Of a stretch of 64,000 nucleotides of DNA, positions 7,917-56,179 are shown in pieces (position 1 is the first letter of the stretch; every line of letters starts with the position of its first letter). The position numbers and the translations under genes are program-made. Source of the stretch: Irineochytrium annulatum (taxonomy: Eukaryota > Chytridiomycota > Chytridiomycetes > Chytridiales > Chytridiaceae); the NCBI GenBank assembly GCA_027600665.1, contig JADGJL010000014.1, positions 56,319 to 120,318 on the forward strand, given 5' to 3'. Under the pieces are notes generated by a model. The model saw only the letters and a program-made list of their open reading frames with translations. It did not search any database and was not told the origin of the DNA.

Positions 7917-8781
7917 ATGCCATCTGCAATGGATTGCCAGATATGTACAGATATTGCTGGCTGTGCTTCAATGTTCTACTTTCCTCCCTCATGCCTCATT
8001 CCCCTTGTATGAAAACATTTTGACAATGCGAAAAAAATATTCCCCCTGTTTAATTCCCCAATTTCATCCACGACTTTTCTCCCTATTTTGCTTTTTTTGA
8101 TACCTAACACGATAAAAACAAATCGTTTGCCGCCATCATTCTTTTTGTTTATTTATTTAATTTTTTTTATTTATACCGGCATCGTTGTGACCTAGATGCT
8201 TGTTTCCTTGATTTCAAATGGATCGCGCCAGCTCTCTATTGCTCTGCTTCACTCAGAAATCTCCTAAAAATGTCCGGATCTTGAGCTATGTCTTGTTCCA
8301 GTGTCCAGATACTTCAATAAACCCGTGACGTGTCTATATAACTTCTCGTCGCCCATCAGTTGGTGAGAAGACGGGATTTGGGGTTAATAAAGGTTTTAAT
8401 GTCCTGTATGTAGAAAACTGTTGGCCGCGAGCAAAAGCCTACGAAAGCAAAAACTTCATCGAAGACTGTCATGTTTGAGTGACGCTTTGTTAAAATTGTG
8501 ATAAATAGATCGTAGAGGTGAGATAAAGGTGGGCAGAACCAAAACGGAAAAACTCGGGGGAAAAGTTTAAAGACCCTCGGGTAAAAAGAGATCGTTAAAA
8601 CTTTGAGTGTTCAAAGAAGCTCATAAGAAACACACGTAAGCCAAAAATTACTTAAAATTAACACGCATGGTCGAAAAAAAGAAGGTGAAGCGCGGTGATA
8701 GAAATACGATGTTGTTAGAAAAGTCATACGAGGTACAAACTGCAGAAATACGATGAGAACAATAGCCGACCAAATGCAGAC
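7917..8781. other. AT-rich spacer between convergent genes
   Basis: 865 bp with many T and A runs and no credible ORF. Two 3' ends converge here, so UTRs and polyadenylation signals (several AATAAA-like words) are expected. No repeat or RNA gene recognised. Confidence 0.5.
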
Positions 8782-50569: not shown

Positions 50570-50775
50570 GGGGGTTGGCTACAACTTGGTGAAGTCCGCC
50601 GCCAATCGGACGCCAGCGTCCAGTTTGTCTGGGAAAATATCTTTTGTGCTCTAAAATGCGCTCCCATTTCTACACTACCATTTTTCTCATCATGCTCAAG
50701 TTGGTTCCGGTCCACTTTTTTCCCCGCTCGCGCAAAGGACTTGCGACCACATCTCCCTTTCTTTTTAATATCTTT

Positions 50776-51006
50776 TGTTAACATGGAAAGGACGAACATC
50801 TTTTATTTTCTAGTAGATACTTTGGTGTCTTAGTACGACGTGGCTGGAATTATTTCAAACCCCGAGACGGCATAAAACCACGGAGGGCCCCCTGGGTTGA
50901 GGGTATCTTCTTACCCTTCAATCCCAGGTGCGCGCGGTTTATTATGCGATGCTTGGTGTATATGTATTTGAAAAACATCTTCTTACCCTTCAATCCCAGC
51001 TCCACA
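50776..51006 (+). repeat. 5' LTR of element B
   Basis: Starts TGTTAACATGGAAAGG and ends CAGCTCCACA. Contains a TATA-like CATAAAA near 50871 and a 23-bp internal direct repeat ATCTTCTTACCC...CCCAG at 50905 and 50977. Five substitutions and one single-base gap from the 3' LTR. Confidence 0.95.
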
Positions 51007-51039
51007 CGTTATCAGCACCATCAGCTCCCGAGCTCAACC

Positions 51040-52218
51040 ATGGGCGAAGGAAACGAGATCAAACCGGACTTCTCGATACTTACGGGATCCAATTACGCCG
51101 AAAGATGGATCCAATGGCGCCTGGACTGTAGAAACCATGTCGGATCAATATCACTCCCAGCCAACTATTACTAGAAAGCGATCCTCGCGACCGACAGCGA
51201 CGACGAGGGCGAAAACGACGACGACGACGAGGCCATTGCCATATCAGCATCGGGTTTCCTGGTACCGGTCACCTCTCCCCTCGAGCACATCGATCATGTG
51301 ATCGACAAACCGACCTGGGCAGACATCAACGCGACAGCAAGGAAACTATCCAAACTCTCCGAAGAAGAGTTCAAGACCTACCAAAAGCTCCTCGCTGGGT
51401 GGACGACGACGGAGAGCCTAGTGAACAAGATGATCACCAGGCACCTCGACGAATCTTTACGCATGGTATATACACAAGGGGGCACCACGGTTTTCGAACG
51501 CTGGGATGCTCTCGAGACATACGTCAACCACAAGGCCGACAAACTGATAGAAAGCTACATGAACGAGATCAGGACTATATCGCAAAATAAGAAAGAGAGC
51601 AATTTTGAATACGCGGGCCGCATCAACATGATCGTGTTCAGACTCCAACAAGCCGGGCATCCCGGCAACAAGACAAAAATACGCGAGGTTTTCGAAAAGG
51701 AGCTATTCAAGAAATTCCTCAGAGGATTCGGCAAGTCCAGGGTTGCTCTGACCCACAGCTTGAAACTTCATCAGATTACGACTTTCAAGCAGGCATACAC
51801 TCACCTGCAAGAAATCGAGAATGAGGCCGATCAATCGAGTCAACAACGCGGCGAGACTGAGACAAGATCCGAGAAATACATTCAGCGCGCGCTGAGAGCG
51901 ACTACCAAGCCCGAGTTTAGGTACGACACCGACAGCGACGATGACGACTTGAACAACGACGACGAGAGCGTCACCATATCGAAATCCAAAATCGAGAAGC
52001 TAATCGCGGCCGGCGTTCAGAAAGCTTTAGCAGCCCACCCCAAGGGGACCGACAACTACAGAACTTCAAGCAGCAGACGTGACCCCGATCCACTTGGCAT
52101 TTTCGTGAACGGCCTGCCACGAAACATCACCGAGTCCGACCTAATGAAGCATTTTGAGCCATACAGGCCAACATCGGCGAGAATATTCGACACTTACCGA
52201 GAAGGACAGCAGGAGTGA
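51040..52218 (+). pseudogene. Gag of element B with RNA-recognition motif
   Basis: Opens MGEGNEIKPDFSILTGSNYA with the Copia Gag hallmark W.xW (ERWIQWRLDCRNHV). An in-frame TAG at 51172 interrupts it, then it continues through acidic linker DSDDEGENDDDDEA and a helical UBN2/DUF4219-like Gag core (LDESLRMVYTQGGTTVFERW; RINMIVFRLQQAGHPGNK; FLRGFGKSRVALTHSLKLH). There is no CCHC knuckle. Instead an RRM begins at about 52087: RNP2-like IFVNGLP, helix ITESDLMKHF, strand SARIFDT. The frame breaks in the middle of the RRM at about 52212, and the second half (GVIKFGSAIDADKALKA, VQISIAKA) is in the next ORF. Confidence 0.8.
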
Positions 52219-53583
52219 TCAAATTTGGATCGGCCATCGACGCGGACAAGGCCCTGAAGGCCGACACAAAAATTAGTTCGGTACAAATTTCCATCGCCAA
52301 GGCGACTAATAAAGTTTCTTCTGCTTACATGGGATCATCAAGATTTGAATCGACAATGATACAAACGCATTACCCACAAAACAACCCGGAAGATGCTCCC
52401 TCCGACGCTCCCTCCGAGAACGCGAAGATCGCGGTCACCGGACTGGTAGACTCGGGATGCGGCAAGCATTTAACACCGATCCTTCCAGTACTAGACAACA
52501 CCATTAGGATGAGTCCGACAGTCTACCAAGGAATCGGGTCACAAGCCATGGGTCCGGAACTCACGGAAATCTGTCGGGAACAACGGATAAGAAGGAACGA
52601 ATTTCGTTGATGAACGTCGAACACGTACCCGGAGCTAGCGAAACACTCTTCAGCGTTTGGCAGATTCTCAAGAGCGGGAGCGACGTATGGTTCTCACACG
52701 AGATGATGTCGGGCTATATCGGTGCTTTGAAGCAGAAATGTGGGTCAATCACTGCTGAAGCCCCCGGAAGAGACGGAGTATTCAGACTAACCGTGAACAC
52801 CGACGCGGAGGCGGCCAACGCAGCGACAAACACCGCAACCGACGATGTTGAACCGGCCTTGCTCGGGGCAGGGATACCTAAAGAGAAGGATTTCCATCTA
52901 TGGCACTCACGATTAGGACATGCGGGCGCCGAAAAGATAATAAAAACAATACCGGCAGTTCACGGCCTCAACATCCGTGGCGGCCCGCCGAAAGATTTTG
53001 TCTGCGACGCATGCATCATGGCAAAGATGCATTTACGTCCATATCGCAGCGTAACACGCAAAAACTCCGATAACCTGCTTGACGAGATATCCTTTGACTT
53101 ACTATTTGCGGAACAGCACAATCCCACATTGGGGGGAGGCACCTGTTTTCTCGGAGTATCAGTTCACAACGCGGGATTTCACTTCGGCTACATACAAAAC
53201 TCCAGGGACAAAACGGCGGAAAACGTAATATACGCGATCAGATGGCTCGAGAGAATAACTGGAGAAAGCGTAATGAGTATTCGCATGGACAGGGGAGGCG
53301 AAAATAGAGCGCGGCACCTTCAAGAAACATGAGCCGAACTCGGGATAACTATCAAGTACACATCACGGAAGCACATGCGCAAAATGGGGAAATAGAAGGC
53401 TGGTTCCGCACGGCTTTCAAACGTGTCCGAGCAAACCTGATCGAAAGCGGCGCACCAAAGAATCTTTGGGGTGAAGGACTCGTAGCTCAATGCTACATCA
53501 ACAACAGATTAATACACGGAAATGAGAATAAAACACCATACGAAAAAATATACGGGAAGAAACCGTACCACGATGAGATCTGA
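52215..53583 (+). pseudogene. Element B protease and integrase
   Basis: Begins with the second half of the RRM, then the retropepsin site GLVDSGCGKHLTP (Asp-Ser-Gly) at about 52440. A frameshift near 52580 precedes GAG-pre-integrase with zinc ligands LWHSRLGHAG and CDACIMAK. The integrase core shows Asp in DEISFDLLF, Asp in RMDRGGEN and the region of the third acidic residue HAQNGEIEGWFRTAF. A TGA near 53330 and a shift near 53360 split the core. The ORF closes at a TGA at 53581 and then continues in the same frame (YTKTGPRARKRRFIGW) toward RT. Confidence 0.85.
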
Positions 53584-53754
53584 GTACTGAATTGCGTTGC
53601 GTATGGCCGCGTTCTACCTAACAGCAGTAGATACACCAAAACAGGACCGCGAGCGCGCAAAAGACGTTTTATCGGTTGGGGCGAAACTGACGGATCGCCT
53701 ATCCAGAAACTGGGATATAAGATTCTGCTCGACGACGGTGATCCTGACTCGGTC

Positions 53755-55853
53755 ATGATTACAAGGGATGCTTACTTCAACGAGAGCTGTTTTGACCCCA
53801 CTAAAGAATGGCGCCTCCCCACCGAATGCGATGGATGGGAGGAAACCGAAGGACCCGAAACCGACGATGACGAAAACAATGATAGCAATGTTGAATCGAC
53901 GCAGCAGCCAAGACGTTCCGAGAGACTGAAAACAAAACTCGGAAATATGCCTGTTGAAAACGATATCGGTTTTCAGCCACCGGAACCCAATAACGAGCAG
54001 CGACGTCGCTCACCAAGATTGATTCAAAACGAGCAGACAAGAAAGGAGCAAGTCGAAGTAGCGAATGATAACTGGCCTGACAAAGTTATTGACAAACAAG
54101 CGACCGAAAGCAATATACAAACAACTACCAGTTTTGTGCGGGCCGGGAAGGCGATTAGCATTCCGAAGACTTTTGAGTCGGCTATGGCTTGCAAAGTAGA
54201 CATATGGACCGACTCTGTCAGGATCAATGAGAGCATGTTCATTGACAATATAGCGGAGAAACACTTTGCGATGTCAACTTTACCTGGACCAACCAATATT
54301 TCTGCGGCATTGAAACTCCCAGAGTGGCGCGCAGCTATTGACAAAGAATTACAACAAATGAAAGATCTGAAGGCCTACCGATTGGCACCTATACCCGACA
54401 ATTGCAAACCTCTACGGTTCCTTTGGGTCTTGAAGATCAAAAAGAACGATGACGATGGCACTCTCACTCACAAAGCCAGATTAGTCGTTAATGGGAGTAA
54501 ACAGACCCCCGACCAATATACGCGCACTTTCGCGGCGACACCGTCGATGACTGCTAACAAAATGTTCACTTCAATGGTAAACCAGAGAAAGATGATAACG
54601 AAGAAATTCGACGTAAGCGGCGCATACTCAATGCCGATATGGATCACGAGCTGTATGGAATAGCCCCAGCAGGTTTCGTAGCACCAGCGGGAGAAGAGTC
54701 ATGGGGATGGAGAATCCTTAAGGCTATCTATGGAACGCGTCAGGGTGCTTACCTATGGGCGAAACACAGAAATGAAAAACTCGCCTTATATGGATTTACT
54801 AAATGCGCCGCGGATCCAAGTCTTTTCAAACGCAAATGTAGAAACGGTGGTATGATGTATCTGTTGATCCACACGGATGACGGAGAATTAGCAGCTGATC
54901 AGGAATGCGGAGATGAAATCGAGGACTTCCTTACCTGGCTGAACAAACAGATGAGGATCACGACGAGCGGCAAGAACGGTCATTTCATCGGTATTCGGAA
55001 AACCTACAAAAAGGACGAAGCATATTTAGATCAGATCGAGTACATTGCGAAAGTAATCGAAGAGTGTTTGGAAACGAAAGAGATGATGACCGGCGTGAAG
55101 AACACGAAACTCACTCCATGGTGCACGGGAATAGACAAACACGCTTTCGATAGCGACGATGATCCGACAGAGGATGAACTAAATTTCATGAAGAGCAAAG
55201 ATTATTATCGAACATTAGGGCTCCTCCAATATGCAGGAAATACGAGACCTGACATTAGTTACACCCTCAGCAAACTAGGTAGACATTCACACAAACCTAG
55301 GCCTATCCATTGGAAAGCAATGCAGCATTTACTGGCTTATCTGAATGGGACGAACGAGATGAGACTGACCTTTCGCCGATGCGAAAACCCTGTTGTGACT
55401 ACGTACACGGACGCCGACCACGCGGGGGATCAACATACGCGTCGCTCCACCTCTGGAATAGTAGTGATGTTCGGCGAGACGGCAGTAGCGGGCGGATCAA
55501 AACTTCAGAGAATGGTGGCTGATTCGACTGTGGCGTCAGAAACAATAGCGGCGAATCGAGCAATCAAGGAAACGATCCACGTACGAAATATAGCGGCATG
55601 GATGGGTTTCTCGGATGAGCCATCAATTATGTACACGGATAGTTCGGGTCTGATCAAGAACACGGAAGACGGAGCTATGAGACACGAGACAAAACATCTC
55701 GACATACAATACATGTTTCTGAAGGATCTGGTTGAGGCCGGCGAGGTCGTTATCAAACATATTGGGACCGATGAGATGGTGGCGGACTGCATGACGAAGG
55801 GGCTTGGTTCCAACAAGCATGGATATTTCCGGAAGAAAATGGGAGTGGCTTGA
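53755..55853 (+). pseudogene. Element B reverse transcriptase and RNase H
   Basis: A Copia RT domain begins PEWRAAIDKELQQMKDLKAY, followed by LRFLWVLKIKKNDDDG and HKARLVVNGSKQTPDQY. A one-base loss near 54625 splits the FDVSGAY / NADMDHELYGIAPAGF block. The active-site box reads LLIHTDDGEL rather than the usual YVDD. RNase H shows Asp in TDADHAGDQHTRRSTSG, Glu in SETIAANRAIKE and Asp in YTDSSGLIKN, then KHLDIQYMFLKDL. It ends KKMGVA at 55853, 64 bp before the 3' LTR. Confidence 0.9.
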
Positions 55854-55916
55854 GATTCATTATTTTTGAGATAACTCAAATAGATCCCCATAACGAGGCA
55901 TCTCTTTGGGAGGGAG

Positions 55917-56148
55917 TGTTAACATGGAAAGGACGAACATCTTTTATTTTCTAGTAGATACTTTGGTGTCTTAGTGCGACGTGGCTGGAAATATTTCAAA
56001 CCCCGAGTCGGCATAAAACCACGGAGGGCCCCCTGGGATTGAGGGTATCTTCTTACCCTTCAATCCCAGGTGCGTGCGGTTTATTATGCGATGCTTGGTG
56101 TATATGTATTTGAATAACATCTTCTTACCCTTCAATCCCAGCTCCACA
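55917..56148 (+). repeat. 3' LTR of element B
   Basis: Same ends as the 5' copy (TGTTAACATGG...CTCCACA), immediately preceded by a purine-rich tract and followed by TCTTT, the target-site copy. Confidence 0.95.
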
Positions 56149-56179
56149 TCTTTCCATGAATCAAATTAAAAACGAGTGT

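Follow-up and report, generated by a model that had tools for sequence, protein, structure and literature searches.

An RNA-recognition motif at the nucleocapsid position of Gag in a Ty1/Copia clade of Irineochytrium annulatum and metagenomic relatives

We analysed a stretch of 64,000 nucleotides from the chytrid Irineochytrium annulatum (contig JADGJL010000014.1, positions 56,319 to 120,318; contig label C148, G000:C148:56319-120318), called the window throughout, and in it element B, a decayed copy of a Ty1/Copia long terminal repeat (LTR) retrotransposon at 50776-56148. Element B probably represents a distinct Ty1/Copia clade whose nucleocapsid slot holds an RNA-recognition motif (RRM) and no CCHC zinc knuckle, as the result of a single capture, and in which the RRM would serve RNA packaging. 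Homology of the domain to RRMs, its place in Gag, its occurrence in divergent lineages on one reverse transcriptase (RT) branch, the absence of CCHC from the scanned sequences and purifying selection were observed. They suggest that an LTR-type element exchanged its RNA-packing part for a cell-type RRM. On balance we lean towards an old and diverse Copia clade of chytrid and environmental organisms that dropped the zinc knuckle and uses a cellular-type RRM to pack its genome, perhaps sequence-selectively. Element B itself is a fossil, and thus the conclusions rest on its relatives.

The RRM of element B

A change of reading frame, somewhere from about 52198 to 52208, interrupts the RRM of element B. 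The frame of 51175 gives DPLGIFVNGLPRNITESDLMKHFEPYRPTSARIFDTY at 52087-52197, and the frame of 52158 gives AGVIKFGSAIDADKALKADTKISSVQISIAKAT at 52209-52307. The original prediction, made from the letters of the window, had placed RRM motifs here, and they do stand in these two readings; the position just before the protease was also right, while the "joined translation" that it used passes over the frame change. The first half matched Pfam RRM_1 with E 7.2e-4 and 19.8 bits, just below the cut-off of 20.7, and the second half alone gave no significant Pfam match (best RRM_PARP14_3, E 0.18). With E up to 10 allowed, the 43-residue first half had 52 matches in PDB, mostly to chains named as RNA-binding proteins; the best (E 5.4e-4) was a chain named only AT27789p, followed by an RNA-binding motif protein (E 0.0014). 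Moreover, when an RRM profile that left out all sequences of the window's subfamily was run against the 1328 open reading frame segments of the window, the Gag piece of element B ranked first with a modest E of 0.0067, and was the sole segment passing HMMER's inclusion threshold. A related copy on C940, 75% identical to element B in DNA, carries the RRM unbroken (RRM_1 E 2.4e-6, 27.8 bits, above the cut-off) in a single open frame that runs on into the beginning of the protease (PF22936, 33.3 bits).

Relatives in the genome and in metagenomes

A Gag search of the genome gave 12 matches on nine contigs: C148, C940 (three), C228, C1046 (two), C900, C352, C411, C281 and C278. The RRM follows Gag and precedes the protease in C940, C228, C1046, C281 and C411, the RRM of C411 being split by a frame break. 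Thus the capsid-RRM-protease order recurs in two further divergent lineages of the genome, C228/C1046 and C281/C411. C352 has Gag and RRM on a stretch that ends before the protease, and C278 was seen as an RRM fragment only; since the stretches read hold no RT, these two are assigned solely on the likeness of their Gag or RRM. On C900 the matching piece is a fragment of Gag, and the stretch read there shows no RRM. The genome has 46 RVT_2 matches, and 20 stretches and a few loci were read. The C1046 and C228 proteins are called P0001 and P0002, respectively; that of the C228 element matches the NCBI entry HK101_004565 from Irineochytrium annulatum with 100% identity across 96% of the query, in keeping with this chytrid (Chytridiales) as the host.

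Metagenomic relatives were sought by protein searches that scored the best 7986 to 7993 candidates by shared words, so that all counts are lower bounds. Residues 195-900 of the C1046 frame found at least 3 proteins, and the protease-integrase part of P0005, a query that leaves out the RRM, found at least 108, P0005 included. Among the matches listed, seven had E 1.5e-93 or less (P0005, P0004, P0006, P0007, P0003, P0008 and P0009), and the next stood at 3e-35. In a precomputed table, PF00076 was annotated in four of these seven but in 0 of the 101 others among the matches listed. P0005 and P0006 start at Met and run through the capsid region, RRM (282-350 and 266-334, respectively), protease, integrase and RT. 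P0009 begins inside the RRM (15.2 bits, below the cut-off), the match in P0003 is weak and of DbpA type (17.7 bits, cut-off 25.6), and the P0004 sequence begins at the protease, downstream of any RRM position. PF25597 was above its cut-off upstream of PF07727 in all eight of P0001 and P0003-P0009, that is, integrase before RT in one polyprotein. PF13976 was above its cut-off in P0001, P0003, P0004, P0005 and P0008, and slightly to clearly below it in P0006, P0007 and P0009. In one viral-contig scan with P0005, two stretches fitted a pattern and neither encodes a relative.

With these relatives the Pfam check named in the original prediction gave clear matches, 66 bits in P0005 and 72 bits (71.8) in P0006, the window half staying under the cut-off. 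In total, RRM_1 (PF00076) exceeded the Pfam cut-off in 8 of the 13 clade sequences scanned, C940 included. Within the window's subclade Pfam recognises the RRM in C940 and C278 but not in C228 or C1046; a profile comparison, in which profile A5 was built without the window's own letters, ties this subclade to both RRM sets (E 2.3e-7 and 1.5e-6). The P0005 RRM matches PDB RRMs of poly(A)-binding protein (PABP), nucleolin, PUF60 and RBM39. P0005 and P0006 also match NCBIfam splicing-factor and PABP models, with scores far below the whole-protein cut-offs, as expected of a lone RRM.

Reverse transcriptase tree and zinc knuckles

The RT tree was built from 57 of 91 usable rows (133 rows had a match). 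One branch, with support 100/99, unites the 12 rows labelled as the RRM clade and C460. Ten of these 13 rows show the RRM (P0001, P0003, P0005-P0009, C281, C411 and the window); for P0004, C25 and C460 the sequence examined excludes Gag. P0003 and C460 were among the long branches flagged by the tree program. The C460 locus (L032, C460:18200-21835) has its RT within the RRM-clade branch, at the tip of a long branch, and its Gag would lie beyond the contig end. All 12 labelled clade rows (window, P0001, P0003-P0009, C281, C411 and C25) have an HxDD box, namely HTDD, HSDD or HADD in place of YVDD, and no box was found in C460. On the other hand, YV was the commonest pair before DD over the 91 rows (45), with HV in four, including HVDD in C900, and 19 without a pattern match.

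A strict scan of the window found no CCHC in element B, as had been predicted, and one knuckle in another element, on the minus strand at 1691-1650. Similarly, nine clade proteins showed no strict zinc-knuckle pattern, and every loose match fell in the CxxC...H of the integrase region. Between capsid and protease CCHC was present in none of the nine, P0004, P0007 and P0009 starting too late to cover the whole interval. The strict and loose scans of these nine proteins speak against a hidden zinc knuckle. Absence of CCHC does not exclude a Copia affiliation, because Ty1 also is without a knuckle. CCHC-bearing Copia elements of the same genome stand outside the RRM branch: C148 (minus strand, window start), C365 and C900. 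C995 also has the CCHC pattern, with an RT piece too short for the tree. Among the proteins scanned, only C900 passed the zf-CCHC Pfam cut-off and the others rest on the pattern; the protein pieces of C365 and C148 gave no or weak zf-CCHC matches, and the C365 piece excluded the pattern.

The original prediction had read an RRM swapped in at the nucleocapsid position. The capsid-RRM-protease order in divergent lineages on one RT branch, without CCHC, agrees with it, and the role in packaging would follow by analogy with the slot in other elements.

Selection and evidence against the reading

The ratio of nonsynonymous to synonymous rates (dN/dS) was estimated by the Nei-Gojobori method from the proportions of nonsynonymous (pN) and synonymous (pS) differences. 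Between C228 and C1046 the RRM (72 codons, pN 0.061, pS 0.602) gave dN/dS 0.05, indicating purifying selection, and the linker to the protease gave 1.01 (32 codons), near neutral; since a pS near 0.6 is near saturation, such ratios are rough, and it is the contrast of RRM and linker within a pair that matters. Elsewhere in this pair dN/dS was 0.16 in Gag before the RRM, 0.10 in N-terminal Gag, 0.15 in the protease and 0.09 in the integrase. The window and C940 gave 0.16 for the first RRM half, 0.31 for the second, 0.44 for the linker and 0.09 for the protease, and C281 and C411 gave 0.10 and 0.05 for the RRM halves.

These data bear on the possibility that a host RRM exon was captured by the window copy alone or that the likeness arose by chance. 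Such an explanation would fit the window copy by itself, which yields only a half-domain match below threshold. However, the RRM lies in the same place in C940, in other lineages of the genome and in metagenomic elements, and the domain is under purifying selection and passed the profile-search controls, making this explanation exceedingly improbable. A host exon in one copy is ruled out by the RRM shared among relatives and by selection, and a chance likeness by the Pfam match, the ranking of 1328 segments and the profile comparison. Relatives with the Gag-RRM-protease order and an unbroken RRM (C940, P0005 and P0006) were found, a search for such copies having been proposed in the original prediction, and the RRM is not private to the window copy.

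Several results weigh against an RRM clade of single origin with a packaging role. The PF00076 cut-off was not reached by P0001, P0002, P0003, P0009 or the window half; P0001 and P0002 had no Pfam RRM match at all, and a whole-genome RRM_1 search gave no match at C228, C1046 or C411. The value for the second RRM half of the window and C940 has a wide interval (pN/pS 0.11-0.97), and the linker of C281 and C411 is likewise constrained (0.18), so that this pair has no neutral linker. Structure prediction, which had been proposed as a check, did not model the RRM with confidence: in two AlphaFold models of P0002, one with seven more rows and one with the window Gag piece alone, the RRM had a pLDDT (confidence score) under 50. 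The input alignments were shallow and out of register at the RRM, and 218 scripted alignment combinations gave no better register. The capsid of P0002 was modelled in the run with seven more rows and matches the Drosophila Copia capsid in a structural search, which speaks for the capsid alone because the RRM was modelled in neither run.

To the same side belongs the loss of the RNP1 aromatics, together with two residues fewer in beta3 by alignment, in C228, C1046, C940, C278 and the window. Together with selection that is still strong (0.05 between C228 and C1046), this loss would suit an RRM that is present by descent and no longer binds RNA in the window's subclade. Such a domain could be a protein-protein module for Gag multimerisation or host-factor recruitment, another stretch of Gag packing the RNA; U2AF-homology RRMs serve as protein-protein modules. 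However, of these five all but C278 keep the RNP2 aromatic, both RNP motifs are canonical with their aromatics in P0005, P0006, C281 and C352, and the domain occupies the RNA-packaging slot. We therefore regard a pure protein module as unlikely. If the RRM of the window's subclade does bind RNA, the missing RNP1 aromatics imply that it would do so by RNP2, loops or basic residues, or else the domain may have shifted to protein contact.

The last point of this kind concerns origin: by phmmer, the RRMs of the deep lineages are no closer to one another than to the eight host RRMs compared, and thus only the place and the RT tree argue for a single capture. Several captures of RRMs from host genes, into a capsid-protease slot open to swaps, would agree with P0008 and P0003, whose RRMs score best against host RRMs and not against clade members. 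On the other hand, the RT-bearing RRM elements share one branch and the RRM keeps one place; moreover, only eight host RRMs were compared, and short, fast-diverging RRMs make such scores weak. Repeated capture therefore seems rather improbable, and we prefer one acquisition.

Comparison with known systems and proposed function

In retroviruses and LTR retrotransposons, selection and compaction of the RNA are typically the work of CCHC knuckles or basic tails. The RRM clade resembles Ty1/Copia elements (Pseudoviridae, e.g. Drosophila Copia) in its LTRs, 5-bp target-site duplication, Gag-protease-integrase-RT order, RVT_2-type RT and retroviral-type capsid fold, but differs in having an RRM, no CCHC knuckle and the HxDD box. 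Yeast Ty1 Gag, also of Copia type, has no CCHC knuckle and uses a basic C-terminal region instead, with no RRM; the clade is like it in the missing knuckle and unlike it in having an RRM. Among non-LTR elements, RRMs occur in ORF1 proteins such as Jockey ORF1 and that of the BNR long interspersed nuclear element (LINE). There, too, the RRM is a module of the retrotransposon's RNA-binding protein, but ORF1 systems are without capsid, protease and LTRs.

The nearest precedent that we found is the RRM-like domain in the Gag of PNMA-related vertebrate metaviruses (Ty3/Gypsy, Metaviridae). It is described as N-terminal and preceding the capsid (RNA-binding domain, capsid, nucleocapsid), the nucleocapsid is kept, and RNA binding is proposed and not shown there (PMC11011659). 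In the Copia clade, in contrast, the RRM stands after the capsid, and the scans showed no knuckle. A literature search over titles and the starts of abstracts, with most subscription papers and preprints outside its reach, found no description of an RRM in Copia Gag.

We propose that the clade's ancestor took up the RRM in a single event. Gag would assemble through its capsid domain, and the RRM, C-terminal in Gag, would face the particle interior and bind the element RNA there, doing the packaging job done elsewhere by the zinc knuckle or basic tail; the protease would then free the RRM and separate the parts. RNA binding and packaging are deduced from the usual function of RRMs and from the part that the slot plays in other elements. 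If this is true, the nucleocapsid is an exchangeable module, LTR elements join the RRM-bearing LINE ORF1 proteins as a case of convergence, and an LTR retroelement depends for its packaging on an RNA-binding fold that is among the commonest in eukaryotes. The RNA choice of such a Gag should also be readable by standard RRM assays.

Layout of element B

The features of element B in the window are as follows.

50771..50775, plus strand: target-site duplication TCTTT, left copy
50776..51006, plus strand: 5' LTR, 231 bp, TGTTAACA...CTCCACA
51007..51019, plus strand: primer-binding-site candidate CGTTATCAGCACC, directly after the 5' LTR
51040..51870, plus strand: Gag capsid region, in-frame stop at 51172-51174, 28% identity to P0002
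52096..52197, plus strand: RRM first half, beta1 (RNP2 IFVNGL), alpha1 and beta2; Pfam RRM_1 positions 1-33, 19.8 bits; PDB matches
52209..52307, plus strand: RRM second half in the other frame, beta3 (degenerate RNP1), alpha2 and beta4, aligned to unbroken C940
52437..52607, plus strand: aspartic protease start, VDSGCGKHLTP, motif at 52446-52475
52880..53029, plus strand: GAG-pre-integrase / integrase zinc domain, PF13976 E 1.4e-9
53590..53793, plus strand: integrase SH3-like domain, weak, PF25597 18.6 bits, under the cut-off of 27
54370..55070, plus strand: reverse transcriptase in two frames, PF07727, HTDD box for YVDD at 54858-54881
55917..56148, plus strand: 3' LTR, 232 bp
56149..56153, plus strand: target-site duplication TCTTT, right copy

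The two LTRs differ at 6 of 232 aligned columns, and a purine-rich stretch, GGGAGGGAG, precedes the 3' LTR. The coding breaks are the stop at 51172-51174, the frame change inside the RRM and more in the protease-integrase and RT regions. The primer-binding-site candidate CGTTATCAGCACC also stands before Gag in C940, C228 and C1046, giving four elements with that of the window, and these account for four of the seven places where the genome matches it exactly. ARAGORN, which could miss an intron-bearing tRNA gene, found no tRNA that overlaps one of the seven; the complement presumably resembles an internal tRNA piece, with no matching tRNA gene found. The remaining places may mark further copies at C366, C490 and C690.

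Close to element B, at 1-2663 on the minus strand, another Copia element leaves the window at its left end. Its Gag has the CCHC pattern (1691-1650; Pfam zf-CCHC only 10.4 bits), in contrast to element B. In the Gag of element B, two stretches coding for acidic residues, at 51190-51227 before the capsid core and at 51928-51965 after it, are 82% alike in DNA.
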